64,000 bases of DNA from Hypomesus transpacificus (taxonomy: Eukaryota; Chordata; Actinopteri; Osmeriformes; Osmeridae). Every line of letters begins with the position of its first letter. The stretch's first letter is position 1. Made by a program: the position numbers and the translations under genes. The notes under the pieces were generated by a model. It was not told the DNA's origin and ran no database searches. It was given only the letters and a program-made list of their open reading frames with translations. Positions 46,473 to 56,812 of this stretch are shown one piece after another. The stretch lies in assembly GCF_021917145.1 (NCBI RefSeq), contig NW_025813796.1, forward strand, positions 124,001-188,000, given 5' to 3'.

Positions 46473-49400
46473 ATGAGCTTTCTATTGTAAGTTTGTTAGC
46501 TAACAGATATCTACTGTGGATCATTGTGTTGGAAGTTTAATAACCCTTTCTTTTAATGTTTTGGTATTTGTTTTGGGTGAACTGAGCGACATTTAGCGAG
46601 TCCATTAACTGGCAATACAAATGACCTGGGGATTTTGTTTTTTGTTTGACTGCTTCTTCAGCAATATTTATGATTTTAGAATAATGGCTAGCCGGTTACT
46701 GTGGTACTGTAGTAGATGACTTTCTTTCCATAGTGTAGCCTGTTTTACTATTCAGAAACTGACGTAGCCTACAAATTAACTAATAGTATGAGCCCTAACT
46801 TAGGGTAACCCTAACTGCGTGTTAGTTCAACAGTCACTTGATTAGGGAAAGCTGCCAGTGCTGCTACAAAATAACACGTCTGACAGATAAATTCTCGTTG
46901 GACTGAAGTTGACAGTGCTTTTCAACATTTAAAGTTCAGCTGAACTGGAAATAGACCAAGCTAGGGTCTAAGCATTTGCCCTGTCTACGATTTTGCTGGC
47001 TGCCTCACAAGTACTGCTTCAAAGTGCGTGCTATGGTAGCCAATGGGATGTACATTTACATTTTACATTTATTCATTTAGCAGACGCTTTTATCCAAAGC
47101 GACTTCCAAGAGAGAGCTTTACAGTGCATAGGTCACTGATAATAACAACAAGATAGCCCCACAGCATTGCGGGTAGTCAAAAACAAGAAGTACATATTGT
47201 GAACAACCAAAAAATAGTGCTAAAGGGAAGAAACCATAAGAGCATGTAGTTAAACAAGTTAAAATTACACAACATTAATCTCTAAGTGCAGGTGTACCTG
47301 TAGGAAAGCAATAAAAATAGGATTAACTAAAATAGAATACAACAGTTTAAATCAGCTACCACTAACCAACAAGAGCAACAGTCTAAGCAGGAGTCATTGT
47401 GATACTTGAGGAAACTAGCGTTGGGTTCAGCAAACTATTCCTAAATACCATTGTACTCCCGGAACAAGTGCGTCTTGAGCCTTCTCTTGAAGGTGGAGAG
47501 ACAGTCCGTGTCTCTGATGGAGGTGGGGAGTTGATTCCACCACTGGGGTGCCATGTAGTTTCAATGTGTACTTATTTATTAAACTATAATGAAGGCATGA
47601 CAAGGCATATGATATGTGTTGGTATCAAACATGTATAAGTCATATGATGTTGAATGGTATGGGGACAGCCACTGAGTCCAGAAGATGGAAAGAAGTGGCT
47701 GGTAAATCAACATCTCTCTCAACACACAATTTGCCTATTCTACGTCATTTTTTTATGTTTATTGTCTCACAGTGGCAATCGGTCGTCCAAGACTTTTAAA
47801 CCCAAAAAGAACATACCAGAGGGCTCTCATCAATATGAGCTTTTGAAACACGCCGAGGCTACGCTGGGAAGTGGAAACCTCCGAATGGCAGTCATGCTCC
47901 CGGAGGGAGAGGATCTGAACGAGTGGGTCGCAGTCAACAGTAAGGGGCTAATCTGCACATCTCCATCTTCTATACACATTTAGTAAGGGGCTAATCTGCA
48001 CATCTCCAGATTCTACACACATTTAGTAAGGGGCTAATCTGCACATCTCCAGATTCTACACACATTTAGTAAGGGACTAATCTGCACATCTCCAGTTTCT
48101 ACACACATTTAGTAAGGGGCTAATCTGCACATCTCCAGTTTCTACACACATTTAGTAAGGGGCTAATCTGCACATCTCCAGATTCTACACACATTTAGTA
48201 AGGGGCTAATCTGCACATCTCCAGATTCTACACACATTTAGTAAGGGGCTAATCTGCACATCTCCAGTTTCTACACACATTTAGTAAGGGGCTAATCTGC
48301 ACATCTCCAGCTTCTACACACATTTAGTAAGGGGCTAATCTGCACATCTCCAGATTCTACACACATTTAGTAAGGGGCTAATCTGCACATCTCCAGATTC
48401 TACACACATTTAGTAAGGGGCTAATCTGCACATCTCCAGATTCTACACACATTTAGTAAGGGGCTAATCTGCACATCTCCAGCTTCTACACACATTTAGT
48501 AAGGGGCTAATCTGCACATCTCCAGATTCTACACACATTTAGTAAGGGGCTAATCTGCACATCTCCAGATTCTACACACATTTAGTAAGGGGCTAATCTG
48601 CACATCTCCAGTTTCTACACACATTTAGTAAGGGGCTAATCTGCACATCTCCAGCTTCTACACACATTTAGTAAGGGGCTAATCTGCACATCTCCAGATT
48701 CTACACACATTTAGTAAGGGGCTAATCTGCACATCTCCAGATTCTACACACATTTAGTAAGGGGCTAATCTGCACATCTCCAGCTTCTACACACATTTAG
48801 TAAGGGGCTAATCTGCACATCTCCAGCTTCTACACACATTTAGTAAGGGGCTAATCTGCACATCTCCAGCTTCTACACACATTTAGTAAGGGGCTAATCT
48901 GCACATCTCCAGATTCTACACACATTTAGTAAGGGGCTAATCTGCACATCTCCAGCTTCTACACACATTTAGTAAGGGGCTAATCTGCACATCTCCAGCT
49001 TCTACACACATTTAGTAAGGGGCTAATCTGCACATCTCCAGATTCTACACACATTTAGTAAGGGGCTAATCTGCACATCTCCAGATTCTACACACATTTA
49101 GTAAGGGGCTAATCTGCACATCTCCAGCTTCTACACACATTTAGTAAGGGGCTAATCTGCACATCTCCAGCTTCTACACACATTTAGTAAGGGGCTAATC
49201 TGCACATCTCCAGATTCTACACACATTTAGTAAGGGGCTAATCTGCACATCTCCAGATTCTACACACATTTAGTAAGGGGCTAATCTGCACATCTCCAGC
49301 TTCTACACACATTTAGTAAGGGGCTAATCTGCACATCTCCAGCTTCTACACACATTTAGTAAGGGGCTAATCTGCACATCTCCAGATTCTACACACATTT

Positions 49401-52400
49401 AGTAAGGGGCTAATCTGCACATCTCCAGATTCTACACACATTTAGTAAGGGGCTAATCTGCACATCTCCAGCTTCTACACACATTTAGTAAGGGGCTAAT
49501 CTGCACATCTCCAGCTTCTACACACATTTAGTAAGGGGCTAATCTGCACATCTCCAGATTCTACACACATTTAGTAAGGGGCTAATCTGCACATCTCCAG
49601 CTTCTACACACATTTAGTAAGGGGCTAATCTGCACATCTCCAGCTTCTACACACATTTAGTAAGGGGCTAATCTGCACATCTCCAGCTTCTACACACATT
49701 TAGTAAGGGGCTAATCTGCACATCTCCAGATTCTACACACATTTAGTAAGGGGCTAATCTGCACATCTCCAGCTTCTACACACATTTAGTAAGGGGCTAA
49801 TCTGCACATCTCCAGCTTCTACACACATTTGGTAAGGGGCTAATCTGCACATCTCCAGATTCTACACACATTTAGTAAGGGGCTAATCTGCACATCTCCA
49901 TCTTCTATACACATTTAGTAAGGGACTAATCTGCACATCTCCAGCTTCTACACACATTTAGTAAAGGGCTAATCTGCACATCTCCAGCTTCTACACACAT
50001 TTAGTAAGGGGCTAATCTGCACATCTCCAGCTTCTACACACATTTAGTAAGGGGCTAATCTGCACATCTCCAGCTTCTACACACATTTAGTAAGGGGCTA
50101 ATCTGCACATCTCCAGCTTCTACACACATTTAGTAAGGGGCTAATCTGCACATCTCCAGATTCTACACACATTTAGTAAGGGACTAATCTGCACATCTCC
50201 AGTTTCTACACACATTTAGTAAGGGGCTAATCTGCACATCTCCAGCTTCTACACACATTTAGTAAGGGGCTAATCTGCACATCTCCAGATTCTACACACA
50301 TTTAGTAAGGGGCTAATCTGCACATCTCCAGCTTCTACACACATTTAGTAAGGGGCTAATCTGCACATCTCCAGATTCTACACACATTTAGTTAGGGGCT
50401 AATCTGCACATCTCCAGATTCTACACACATTTAGTAAGGGGCTAATCTGCACATCTCCAGATTCTACACACATTTAGCAAGGGGCTAATCTGCACATCTC
50501 CAGCTTCTACACACATTTAGTAAGGGGCTAATCTGCACATCTCCAGCTTCTACACACATTTAGTAAGGGGCTAATCTGCACATCTCCAGCTTCTACACAC
50601 ATTTAGTAAGGGGCTAATCTGCACATCTCCAGCTTCTACACACATTTAGTAAGGGGCTAATCTGCACAGCTTCTACACACATTTAGTAAGGGGCTAATCT
50701 GCACATCTTTCTACACACATTTAGTAAGGGGCTAATCTGCACATCTACAGCTTCTACACACATTTAGTAAGGGGCTAATCTGCACATCTCCAGTTTCTAC
50801 ACACATTTAGTAAGGGGCTAATCTGCACATCTCCAGATTCTACACACATTTAGTAAGGGGCTAATCTGCACATCTCCAGCTTCTACACACATTTAGTAAG
50901 GGGCTAATCTGCACATCTCCAGATTCTACACACATTTAGTAAGGGGCTAATCTGCACATCTCCAGATTCTACACACATTTAGTAAGGGGCTAATCTGCAC
51001 ATCTCCAGCTTCTACACACATTTAGTAAGGGGCTAATCTGCACATCTCCAGCTTCTACACACATTTAGTAAGGGGCTAATCTGCACATCTCCAGCTTCTA
51101 CACACATTTAGTAAGGGGCTAATCTGCACATCTCCAGCTTCTACACACATTTAGTAAGGGGCTAATCTGCACATCTCCAGTTTCTACACACATTTAGTAA
51201 GGGGCTAATCTGCACATCTCCAGTTTCTACACACATTTAGTAAGGGGCTAATCTGCACATCTCCAGCTTCTACACACATTTAGTAAGGGGCTAATCTGCA
51301 CATCTCCAGTTTCTACACACATTTAGTAAGGGACTAATCTGCACATCTCCAGCTTCTACACACATTTAGTAAGGGGCTAATCTGCACATCTCCAGATTCT
51401 ACACACATTTAGTAAGGGACTAATCTGCACATCTCCAGATTCTACACACATTTAGTAAGGGGCTAATCTGCACATCTCCAGCTTCTACACACATTTAGTA
51501 AGGGGCTAATCTGCACATCTCCAGCTTCTACACACATTTAGTAAGGGGCTAATCTGCACATCTCCAGATTCTACACACATTTAGTAAGGGACTAATCTGC
51601 ACATCTCCAGTTTCTACACACATTTAGTAAGGGGCTAATCTGCACATCTCCAGCTTCTACACACATTTAGTAAGGGGCTAATCTGCACATCTCCAGATTC
51701 TACACACATTTAGTAAGGGGCTAATCTGCACATCTCCAGCTTCTACACACATTTAGTAAGGGGCTAATCTGCACATCTCCAGATTCTACACACATTTAGT
51801 AAGGGGCTAATCTGCACATCTCCAGATTCTACACACATTTAGTAAGGGGCTAATCTGCACATCTCCAGCTTCTACACACATTTAGTAAGGGGCTAATCTG
51901 CACATCTCCAGCTTCTACACACATTTAGTAAGGGGCTAATCTGCACATCTCCAGCTTCTACACACATTTAGTAAGGGGCTAATCTGCACATCTCCAGCTT
52001 CTACACACATTTAGTAAGGGGCTAATCTGCACATCTCCAGTTTCTACACACATTTAGTAAGGGGCTAATCTGCACATCTACAGCTTCTACACACATTTAG
52101 TAAGGGGCTAATCTGCACATCTCCAGCTTCTACACACATTTAGTAAGGGGCTAATCTGCACATCTCCAGATTCTACACACATTTAGTAAGGGGCTAATCT
52201 GCACATCTCCAGCTTCTACACACATTTAGTAAGGGGCTAATCTGCACATCTCCAGATTCTACACACATTTAGTAAGGGGCTAATCTGCACATCTCCAGAT
52301 TCTACACACATTTAGTAAGGGGCTAATCTGCACATCTCCAGCTTCTACACACATTTAGTAAGGGGCTAATCTGCACATCTCCAGTTTCTACACACATTTA

Positions 52401-55400
52401 GTAAGGGGCTAATCTGCACATCTCCAGCTTCTACACACATTTAGTAAGGGGCTAATCTGCACATCTCCAGCTTCTACACACATTTAGTAAGGGGCTAATC
52501 TGCACATCTCCAGCTTCTACACACATTTAGTAAGGGGCTAATCTGCACATCTCCAGTTTCTACACACATTTAGTAAGGGGCTAATCTGCACATCTACAGC
52601 TTCTACACACATTTAGTAAGGGGCTAATCTGCACATCTCCAGCTTCTACACACATTTAGTAAGGGACTAATCTGCACATCTCCAGATTCTACACACATTT
52701 AGTAAGGGGCTAATCTGCACATCTCCAGATTCTACACACATTTAGTAAGGGGCTAATCTGCACATCTCCAGCTTCTACACACATTTAGTAAGGGGCTAAT
52801 CTGCACATCTCCAGCTTCTACACACATTTAGTAAGGGGCTAATCTGCACATCTCCAGCTTCTACACACATTTAGTAAGGGGCTAATCTGCACATCTCCAG
52901 CTTCTACACACATTTAGTAAGGGGCTAATCTGCACATCTCCAGTTTCTACACACATTTAGTAAGGGGCTAATCTGCACATCTCCAGTTTCTACACACATT
53001 TAGTAAGGGGCTAATCTGCACATCTCCAGCTTCTACACACATTTAGTAAGGGGCTAATCTGCACATCTCCAGTTTCTACACACATTTAGTAAGGGGCTAA
53101 TCTGCACATCTCCAGATTCTACACACATTTAGTAAGGGACTAATCTGCACATCTCCAGCTTCTACACACATTTAGTAAGGGGCTAATCTGCACATCTCCA
53201 GTTTCTACACACATTTAGTAAGGGGCTAATCTGCACATCTCCAGATTCTACACACATTTAGTAAGGGGCTAATCTGCACATCTCCAGTTTCTACACACAT
53301 TTAGTAAGGGGCTAATCTGCACATCTCCAGATTCTACACACATTTAGTAAGGGGCTAATCTGCACATCTCCAGCTTCTACACACATTTAGTAAGGGGCTA
53401 ATCTGCACATCTCCAGTTTCTACACACATTTAGTAAGGGGCTAATCTGCACATCTCCAGATTCTACACACATTTAGTAAGGGACTAATCTGCACATCTCC
53501 AGTTTCTACACACATTTAGTAAGGGGCTAATCTGCACATCTCCAGCTTCTACACACATTTAGTAAGGGGCTAATCTGCACATCTCCAGATTCTACACACA
53601 TTTAGTAAGGGGCTAATCTGCACATCTCCAGCTTCTACACACATTTAGTAAGGGGCTAATCTGCACATCTCCAGATTCTACACACATTTAGTAAGGGGCT
53701 AATCTGCACATCTCCAGATTCTACACACATTTAGTAAGGGGCTAATCTGCACATCTCCAGCTTCTACACACATTTAGTAAGGGGCTAATCTGCACATCTC
53801 CAGCTTCTACACACATTTAGTAAGGGGCTAATCTGCACATCTCCAGCTTCTACACACATTTAGTAAGGGGCTAATCTGCACATCTCCAGCTTCTACACAC
53901 ATTTAGTAAGGGGCTAATCTGCACATCTCCAGTTTCTACACACATTTAGTAAGGGGCTAATCTGCACATCTACAGCTTCTACACACATTTAGTAAGGGGC
54001 TAATCTGCACATCTCCAGCTTCTACACACATTTAGTAAGGGGCTAATCTGCACATCTCCAGATTCTACACACATTTAGTAAGGGGCTAATCTGCACATCT
54101 CCAGCTTCTACACACATTTAGTAAGGGGCTAATCTGCACATCTCCAGATTCTACACACATTTAGTAAGGGGCTAATCTGCACATCTCCAGATTCTACACA
54201 CATTTAGTAAGGGGCTAATCTGCACATCTCCAGCTTCTACACACATTTAGTAAGGGGCTAATCTGCACATCTCCAGCTTCTACACACATTTAGTAAGGGG
54301 CTAATCTGCACATCTCCAGTTTCTACACACATTTAGTAAGGGGCTAATCTGCACATCTCCAGCTTCTACACACATTTAGTAAAGGGCTAATCTGCACATC
54401 TCCAGTTTCTACACACATTTAGTAAGGGGCTAATCTGCACATCTCCAGATTCTACACACATTTAGTAAGGGACTAATCTGCACATCTCCAGCTTCTACAC
54501 ACATTTAGTAAGGGGCTAATCTGCACATCTCCAGATTCTACACACATTTAGTAAGGGACTAATCTGCACATCTCCAGCTTCTACACACATTTAGTAAGGG
54601 GCTAGTCTGCACATCTCCAGATTCTACACACATTTAGTAAGGGGCTAATCTGCACATCTACAGCTTCTACACACATTTAGTAAGGGGCTAATCTGCACAT
54701 CTCCAGCTTCTACACACATTTAGTAAGGGGCTAATCTGCACATCTCCAGATTCTACACACATTTAGTAAGGGGCTAATCTGCACATCTCCAGCTTCTACA
54801 CACATTTAGTAAGGGGCTAATCTGCACATCTCCAGCTTCTACACACATTTTCATGACCTTCAAGACGTTTCCCCTAAATATCACTCCCTGCCCCAAGCAC
54901 GTCACATCACCCGCATAACATGTTAAGCCTTTCGTCAGATTTTTGCAAATGGATCGGAGATGTGTCAGCAACCTCGTTTTTCACTTCTGTAGAGTCAACT
55001 TTCAGCTCAGTTCACTGTCAGGAGAGGACATTAACATTCACTCCAAGGAGTGCTATGTTGGCTAGGGGAGAGACAGACCTCTTTGTACTGCCAGCTCTTT
55101 TGTTTGAGGTCTTACATTAAGTTAAATGACTTTGCCAGCGGATGTCTTATTTCCTGTGTAGCACGCATCCAGTGACCTCACTCTTGGAAAGTCTGATGTT
55201 CTGTGGTGAGATCAGCAAACAGTAGACTGACCTTAGCTTTGACTGCAGGTCCCACAATGTCTGCACGCGATCCTCTATCTATGCCATAAGGGAAGACTTG
55301 AACATGAGTCTCGTCTTTGAGATGCGACTGTGCTATAATACTGCATGTGATTGGGAGTTGACACAACCTGTATGTTACGCGGAGACTGTTCACTCTATGC

Positions 55401-56812
55401 TTTTCTTATTGGATAGCCACGTATAAATGTTTGAGCGCACACGAGAGGGTCCTTGACGAGTGTTTCTTTTCCAGCTGTGGATTTCTTCAACCAGATCAAC
55501 ATGCTCTATGGCACCATAACAGACTTCTGCACCGAGGAAAGCTGCCCTGTCATGTCCGCTGGGCTCAAGTAAGGGTCTGCATAAATACGTGTTGAAAGAC
55601 GGGTTGGATGTTTGCATGTTTTTTTTATTTTTTATGATCCAACGATTATTGCAACTTCTCTCGTATAGGTATGAGTACCATTGGGCAGATGGAACCAACA
55701 TCAAGAAGCCAATCAAATGTTCAGCTCCCAAGTACATTGACTATCTAATGACCTGGGTGCAAGACCAACTCGACGATGAGACGCTTTTCCCATCCAAAAT
55801 AGGTATGAGTTGTAGTCTTGCAGTCCATTTCGGTTAAAGATTGTATTGCACTCAATCGCGTTTTTCTCGCTCTCAGACCCTGCCGTGTTTGTCTGTGGCT
55901 ACCATGTGATCTCTTACGTTGGTAACACTTTAGATGAGCTCACCAAATTCATAATTTATTAACCACTTTGTTACCTATTAGTTATTTATTTATTGTTTAT
56001 ACAAAATGTATCATTAGTAAAGCATTTGTTCACACGGTTAGGGTTCGGGTTTAGGGCTAGGGTTTAGGGTTTAAGTTTTGGTTAGGGTTTAGCTTTTTTT
56101 AGCTACATTTTGTATGAACAACAAATAACTAATGGTGAACAAACCGTTAACTAATAAGTAACAAATTGGTTAATAAATTATGTATCATTAGTAAAGCTAA
56201 ACCCTAACCAAAACTTAAACCCTAGCCCTAAACCCGAACCCTAACCCTAACTCTGTGAACAAATGCTTTACTAATGATACATTTTGTACGAACAACAAAT
56301 AACTAAAGGTGAACAAACCGTTAACTAACAAGTAACAAATTGGTTAATAAATGATGAATTTGGTGAGCTCATCTAAAGTGTTACCCTTCCGTTTTCACCC
56401 CAAGGTGTGCCCTTCAAGCGGAACTTCATGTCGGTGGCTAAGACCATCCTGAAGCGCCTGTTCAGGGTCTACGCCCACATCTACCACCAGCACTTTGACT
56501 CTGTGATGCAGCTTCAGGAGGAGGCTCATTTAAACACGTCGTTCAAACACTTCATCTTTTTCGTACAGGTAAAGTAAACCGCAACATGCCAAGAGGTGTT
56601 GGGTAGGTGTCTGTGGACGACGAGTGTTAGGAAGAGGGTTTTGCAAATGTTGTCCCCGGAAACGAAAGGAGACGAGGGCTGAAACGAGTGAAAACGTGAT
56701 CAAGGAAACTGTTGTATTTTCTTGTGTTTTACAGGAGTTTGGCTTGATTGACAGGAAAGAGTTGGTCCCGCTACAGGAGCTGATTGAGAAACTGACAACC
56801 AAAGACAGATAG
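46473..56812 (+). CDS. mob1b: MOB kinase activator 1B, complete
   Basis: Hippo-pathway scaffold that binds MST-phosphorylated sites and activates LATS and NDR kinases. Exons 46473-46486, 47773-47939, 55475-55568, 55669-55802, 56405-56568 and 56735-56812 give 216 residues, exactly the family length. Thr12 and Thr35, the MST sites, are present, as are zinc ligands Cys79 and Cys84 (DFCTEESCP) and the HIYHQHF histidines. Diagnostic MOB1B residues are SFLFG, LRMAV, EWVAV and TDFCTEES. Two substitutions from human: Leu for Pro in SAGLKYEY and KR for PK in PFKRNF. The start lies in a 14-nt coding first exon. Intron 2 (47940-55474) consists mostly of a 161-unit tandem array and intron 4 mostly of a palindromic element. 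Followed by dck, as in human 4q13.3. Confidence 0.97.
47045..47552 (-). mobile_element. Dispersed repeat (probable LINE 3' end) in mob1b intron 1
   Basis: The longer of two copies (other at 14.6 kb). The tail on the left is catttattcatttagcagac then cgcttttatccaaagcgact. The far end carries gaggtggggagttgattcca. The tail resembles the SINE tails in this window. It ends about 220 bp before exon 2. The LINE assignment is inferred. Confidence 0.6.
47940..54850 (+). repeat. 161-unit, 43-bp tandem array anchored on the mob1b intron 2 splice donor
   Basis: 6,911 bp of head-to-tail 43-bp units starting GTAAGGGGCTAATCTGCACA and ending in cacattta. Unit 1 starts at the very first base of intron 2 (exon 2 ends ...GTCAACA at 47939). 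The last unit lacks its final A and runs into unique sequence at 54851. Only two units are short, by 6 and 5 bp, near 50.66-50.71 kb; allowing for these gives 161 units exactly. Units differ mainly at one position (cagAttc, cagCttc or cagTttc) and by rare ggac, ctacag, aagg or gcaagg changes. There are no spacers, so this is a minisatellite and not a CRISPR array. Confidence 0.98.
55913..56393. mobile_element. 465-bp palindromic element with telomere-like arms in mob1b intron 4
   Basis: The element (55921-56385) has terminal inverted repeats GGTAACACTTTAGATGAGCT ... ending ctaaagtgttacc. The flanking 8-mers cttacgtt (55913-55920) and cttccgtt (56386-56393) are identical except one base, indicating an 8-bp target duplication and the hAT superfamily. 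Inside, the left arm carries ttagggtt/gggtttaggg runs (about 56036-56095) and the right arm their complement (about 56200-56253). No transposase is present. Confidence 0.8.

Follow-up and report, generated by a model that had tools for sequence, protein, structure and literature searches.

A 161-copy minisatellite at the 5' splice site of mob1b intron 2 in Hypomesus transpacificus: probably an ordinary array that began at a donor by chance

In a window of 64,000 nucleotides (nt) of Hypomesus transpacificus DNA (contig NW_025813796.1, positions 124,001 to 188,000 of the forward strand; "the window" is this whole stretch and positions are counted from its first base), the second intron of mob1b opens with a minisatellite in which a unit of 43 base pairs (bp) containing a 5' splice-site sequence, or donor, is found 161 times. 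We consider this array, with a probability of about 0.75, to be an ordinary and tolerated intronic minisatellite which started at a donor by chance, the extra donors being bypassed by exon definition. The donor start is probably not special, as suggested both by the ranking of donor-like motifs in the genome and by other arrays which lie at real donors, and we infer that a single chance duplication gave rise to the array, that splicing stays faithful and that the extra copies have no function.

Structure of the array and its place in mob1b

Tandem Repeats Finder (TRF) reported a single array at 47939-54850, with a period of 43, 161.0 copies and 97% matches, and cutting the sequence at CACATTT likewise gave 161 units, 159 of which are 43 bp in length whilst units 64 and 65 are 37 and 38 bp; this copy number is the value from one assembly. 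An earlier reading, made from the sequence only, had the array opening where intron 2 opens, with 161 copies and with the shared sequence reaching at most one base into the exon. TRF, the unit census and the continuity of the protein agree on that start, and the overlap between exon and unit is the final A of exon 2 (GTCAACA/GTAAGG, the slash marking the exon end at 47939). The observation is therefore confirmed as accurate and is striking in scale, and the interpretation placed upon it is supported in part, though for the larger part not.

The exon 2/intron 2 boundary is set by protein continuity across six coding exons, which when joined give a protein of 216 residues; exons 2 and 3 together match the Pfam family Mob1_phocein (E 2e-24). 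A MOB1 paralogue on another contig (C270) carries an intron that matches in both position and phase (ACA/GTGAGT, approximately 0.27 kb) without an array, thus indicating that intron 2 is older than the array. We take the gene in the window to be mob1b and the paralogue to be mob1a, although no result here separates the two. The features are as follows.

46473..46486, + strand: mob1b exon 1, coding part
47773..47939, + strand: mob1b exon 2, 167 nt; the array begins with its final A
47939..54850, + strand: minisatellite, 161 units of AGTAAGGGGCTAATCTGCACATCTCCAGCTTCTACACACATTT (43 bp), from TRF and the unit census
47940..47945, + strand: authentic 5' splice site ACA/GTAAGG (donor 1), giving the 216-residue frame; position and phase as in the MOB1 paralogue
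54851..55474, + strand: remainder of intron 2, 624 bp, array-free
55475..55568, + strand: mob1b exon 3 (phase 1 joint, A/CT)
55669..55802, + strand: mob1b exon 4
56405..56568, + strand: mob1b exon 5
56735..56812, + strand: mob1b exon 6, coding end

The array has the properties of an ordinary minisatellite, namely a unit between 10 and 100 bp, a head-to-tail arrangement, homogenised copies and restriction to one locus. Its 43-bp units differ on average by 0.92 bases in pairwise comparison (2.13%), and the 161 units comprise 16 sequence variants in a non-periodic order within which whole blocks recur: 19 units at units 85 and 129, 12 units at 23 and 27 (overlapping), nine at 71 and 112, and eight at 50 and 83. 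The last unit closes with CACATTT, 624 bp before exon 3. When a 301-bp query spanning the start of the array was searched against the genome, the matches listed fell, outside the array, in one place, the exon end of the MOB1 paralogue. No unusual RNA fold was found at the start of the array, where the first units fold worse than shuffled sequences (z +2.0; the fold is equalled or bettered by 194 of 200 shuffles).

Donor copies and the consequences of their use

The 160 later units had been described as near-identical copies of the donor. This holds to the letter for 155, which read TTA/GTAAGG, whilst five deviate: unit 45 reads TTG/GTAAGG and four have altered hexamers (two TTA/GTAAAG, one TTA/GTTAGG and one TTA/GCAAGG). 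Each tandem unit thus has a counterpart of the 5' splice site, with GTAAGG intact in 156 of the 160, and GTAAG occurs 157 times in intron 2 if the true donor is counted. Modelled pairing with the 5' end of U1, a crude measure of donor strength, gave -5.0 kcal/mol for the true donor, the same value for the 155 copies and -8.5 kcal/mol for unit 45. By this measure the true donor is no better than its copies, and what differs is the exon context and the position.

Reading frames were computed for all 161 donors and, as had been claimed, donor 1 alone preserves the 216-residue protein. The further claim that read-through meets an in-frame TAG after some 14 codons is correct for donors 3-161 (159 cases), each giving 74 residues and ending at that TAG; it fails for donor 2, where the frame is shifted and the TAG is avoided because its TA joins a C, resulting in 107 residues. 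The computed stop precedes the last junction by more than 55 nt in all 160 alternative products, a placement that usually leads to nonsense-mediated decay, and use of any later donor is accordingly predicted, as before, to yield a truncated product or decay.

Origin and growth of the array

In the most likely history, a 43-bp segment comprising the final base of exon 2 and the intron up to position +42 would have been duplicated once in tandem; the pair would then have grown to 161 copies, in part through the copying of blocks of many units. A non-periodic order of variants with recurring blocks is the trace expected from such growth.

The sequence-only reading had seen a minisatellite built from a splice donor, and a genome-wide class of donor-seeded minisatellites was considered and rejected. 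Tandem triples (a motif three times with gaps of 5-35) were counted across the genome for AGGTRAG and for seven composition-matched motifs. The early counts favoured such a class (8829 against 2555 for the reverse motif, and then 10465 against 2292), but three permutations and their reverses (7325/2628, 2641/10668 and 4629/11407) removed the enrichment, with AGGTRAG ranking third of the eight motifs and two of the seven controls being commoner. One control, GTGARGA (7325), is not clean as it contains GTGAG, and since copy number within arrays weighs most heavily in the triple counts, the motif test is crude in both directions. Triples of AGGTAAGT are rare, with 22 compared to 121 for the reverse, although the latter is possibly inflated by ATGG-like repeats.

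A start at a donor is also to be expected from the abundance of arrays, since a genome so rich in minisatellites is bound to hold some whose first duplication began at an exon edge. TRF found 10 arrays with a period of 10-100 and at least four copies in 124 kb, made up of the window, the neighbouring 10 kb, 10 kb around the paralogue and four arbitrary 10-kb stretches. The measured density is 80.6 per Mb, and a range of 40-80 was used, the value of 40 allowing for doubtful arrays. A bony fish typically has 200,000-225,000 introns. The chance expectation, which has a wide error, is then 176-396 arrays genome-wide with a start between -20 and +1 relative to a donor. With hundreds expected, one such array is no surprise, although arrays of 161 copies must be rarer. 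Furthermore, three other arrays in this genome, described below, open at the 5' splice site of a coding exon or slightly upstream of it; together with the commoner controls and the chance expectation, these argue against a special origin from the donor.

How the first donor could be chosen

The cell, it had been argued, must choose the first of 161 matching sites. A true donor followed by some 155 near-identical copies is indeed what is present, and a published rule, tested on donor pairs, offers a means of choosing. In the available part of the study by Carranza, Shenasa and Hertel (PMC9225289), the upstream of two near-equal donors is preferred where the flanking introns are long, an effect of proximity across the exon, and where five minigenes carried a pair of identical strong donors with flanking introns of 365 nt, only the upstream donor was used. 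As the 167-nt exon 2 of mob1b lies between introns of 1286 and 7535 nt, donor 1 is predicted. Exon 2 would be recognised as an exon, the donor nearest its upstream acceptor would win, and the later copies would be silent or nearly so, with splicing most likely faithful.

However, the account as a whole, the chance start included, should be considered with caution, as several points weigh against it. According to the same source, the downstream donor is preferred in most events in all four intron classes when no filter for strength is applied, 86% of events go to the stronger donor, the upstream donor wins in 60% when strengths are near equal, and larger constructs mostly skipped the exon when the donors were weakened; the rule was moreover tested on pairs, compared to 161 donors here. 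The true donor of mob1b pairs weakly with U1, and unit 45 pairs better. In human IFI6, the minisatellite of which is discussed below, downstream units are said to serve as donors (PMC4526556, in part). The chance expectation, finally, is built on 10 arrays in 124 kb, which include the mob1b array itself and some that are microsatellite-like. The main risks to faithful splicing would be skipping of the exon and leakage to unit 45.

Recursive (ratchet) splicing through the array was also considered and rejected. The unit junctions read TTTAGTAAGG, in which AG and GT share a single G in place of the AG/GT needed, and the junction into unit 45 reads TTTGGTAAGG, without AG.

Alternative explanations

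The array could instead be leaky, as in IFI6, with low and copy-number-dependent use of later donors leading to premature stops, decay and a lower output of mob1b, so that length variants of the array would change the level of mob1b. The near identity of the donors, the better pairing of unit 45, the stop positions in all 160 alternative frames, the finding that the stronger of two donors usually wins (PMC9225289, available part) and the reported use of two downstream IFI6 units (PMC4526556, in part) are all in keeping with this. We nevertheless regard it as unlikely, given the preference for the upstream one of equal donors where the introns on either side are long (PMC9225289, as above). A related idea, that the array is a natural copy-number dial in which 160 weak donors compete for or load U1 and the proportion of productive mRNA depends on the length of the allele, appears decidedly unlikely; as part of it, growth of the array would be self-insulating, the lengthening of intron 2 from approximately 0.7 to 7.5 kb enforcing exon definition and so protecting the first donor.

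A U1 small nuclear ribonucleoprotein (snRNP) decoy or sink might instead be kept by selection, where it would tune splicing or shield the transcript from early 3' cleavage; of this, the sequence-only reading had put forward decoys that may tune Mob1b. The many intact donor hexamers would suit such a role, but the positions of the donor show no constraint: three of its six sites are variable compared with seven of 37 elsewhere (Fisher p 0.13, a comparison with little power in a homogenised array). The uniformity of the units is explained by recent homogenisation (2.1% divergence), the RNA fold is not unusual, and the MOB1 paralogue has no array at the same site. Intron 2 also contains no AATAAA or ATTAAA, which leaves no obvious target for the blocking of early polyadenylation, and a decoy thus seems highly improbable. 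It is equally hard to credit that the array, or its length, is an artefact of assembly. The array is seen on one contig only, but its 16 variants follow a non-periodic order and it sits inside an intact gene; in addition, 376 contigs for 437 Mb suggest that the assembly was probably made from long reads.

Other arrays at exon donors in the same genome

The three further arrays lie in genes resembling septin-8, the GABA-A receptor alpha-2 chain and DOCK6, and suggest that mob1b is not alone in this genome in having candidate competing donor copies downstream of its true donor. The septin and GABA-A arrays are two of 13 donor-bearing arrays inspected, all on one contig (C1) and among the matches listed.

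The septin-8-like array (L043, C1, approximately 128 kb) starts at a donor as does that of mob1b, with GAG/GTGGGG as its first donor, where a septin exon ends (Pfam E 2e-13; Septin-8 E 9e-35 once the start of the next exon is joined). Its roughly 20 units of 30-31 bp are split into 3.6 and 16.2 by an inserted element, which for that reason probably arrived after the array had formed; the element is some 0.5 kb in length and by eye resembles a short interspersed nuclear element. In this array 16 copies read GAG/GTGAGG and pair with U1 at -10.2, compared to -9.4 for the true donor.

The GABA-A array (L026, C1, 249 kb, minus strand) has 44.8 copies of a 20-bp unit and also starts at a donor, with 13 bases of the exon end included; 51 of 51 residues of the exon beside it are identical to the alpha-2 chain. 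Pairing with U1 is -9.9 for TAG/GTAAGG (21 copies) and -10.0 for AAG/GTAAGG (five), against -8.9 for the true TTG/GTGAGT. With 26 better-pairing donor-like copies, this array is perhaps a better test case than that of mob1b.

The DOCK6-like array (L061, C100, 164.7 kb) consists of three copies of the donor region 25-27 bp apart, the first at the exact splice site as in mob1b, and is perhaps an array at an early stage. The exon matches a solved structure (E 3.8e-11); its search against Pfam gave no DOCK match, just SeqA_N below the cut-off at E 0.04. It was found through the complete list of 22 AGGTAAGT matches, which fall in eight arrays. Two of these are AGGT-microsatellite-like, and the DOCK6-like array is the one among the six others inspected that starts at a coding exon, the frames of the remaining five being judged by eye only.

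The survey of homology array by array is blind to short or untranslated exons. For the arrays on C1 the Pfam search covered the donor-strand frames of seven of the 13, and no match was obtained for one or two open frames at each of L025, L044 (minus strand), L045, L046 and L047. L039, L044 (plus strand), L049 and L051, where the longest open frame up to the donor is at most 34 residues, fell outside the search, and at L048 the sequence upstream of the array is masked only. The array at L050 (C1, 1.38 Mb) adjoins a teneurin exon in antisense orientation (47.9 bits in Pfam, slightly below the cut-off of 50; E 7e-13). On the sense strand the units of the array carry CTTACCTCC some 20 nt upstream of the acceptor of that exon, and arrays therefore adjoin 3' splice sites too. 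L025 (C1, 209 kb) has 3.1 copies of a 68-bp unit in which 16 nt lie between an acceptor-like CAG and an AG/GTGAG donor, and is possibly a tandemly copied micro-exon.

Neighbouring genes and a further repeat

Among the genes flanking mob1b are one for a pseudouridine synthase (PF01416, E 1.6e-12), which lies on the minus strand, and, downstream, one for a deoxynucleoside kinase (PF01712, E 8.9e-7). Intron 4 of mob1b contains a fold-back element (55921-56385) with inverted arms of 64 nt, 94% complementary, which enclose TTAGGGTT-like repeats of telomere type in opposite orientations.

Relation to known systems and significance

A splice-donor minisatellite is present in the human gene IFI6 (also 6-16 or G1P3). 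The IFI6 array reportedly has a 12-nt unit and 26 copies, starting near the end of exon 2; in a similar manner the mob1b array begins at the end of a coding exon, its first unit taking in the last base of exon 2. The two also share tandem units each with a 5' splice-site sequence (156 of the 160 later units in mob1b). The IFI6 array was reported by Turri et al. (1995, Nucleic Acids Research 23:1854), as cited in PMC4526556, PMC2572611 and PMC2915984, and in the parts available these sources have it supplying several donors, two downstream repeat units being used according to PMC4526556. The earlier statement that no such case was known is thus overturned, although a literature search, which left most subscription journals outside its reach, found no paper on a mob1b array. 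Unlike IFI6, whose units are reported to be used as donors, the mob1b array with its 161 copies of 43 bp is known from sequence alone; judged by its anatomy, it would be an extreme member of the same kind.

Tandem repeats within fish introns have been described in gilthead sea bream, in the growth hormone and MSTN-2 genes, with a 150-bp block at the 5' end of MSTN-2 intron 1 (PMC3045353, available part); unlike mob1b, this block is present in one or two copies, and repeated donors are not among the topics of that part. In the model of Rogers, tandem AGGT-bearing segments with splice signals are a source of introns, as exemplified by a fission-yeast case in which an intron spans four copies of a 24-bp repeat (PMC4974935, in part). 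The mob1b array resembles these segments, but there duplication creates a new intron, whereas the intron of mob1b is older than its array. Gain of intron 2 by tandem duplication does not fit, as the MOB1 paralogue has this intron in array-free form.

The mob1b array is a natural extreme case for a question of current interest, by what means the spliceosome settles on a single 5' splice site when many are equal. Tests of the cross-exon proximity rule in living fish would become possible with variants in allele length and with the GABA-A and septin arrays, in which the pairing of the copies with U1 is stronger than that of the true donor.

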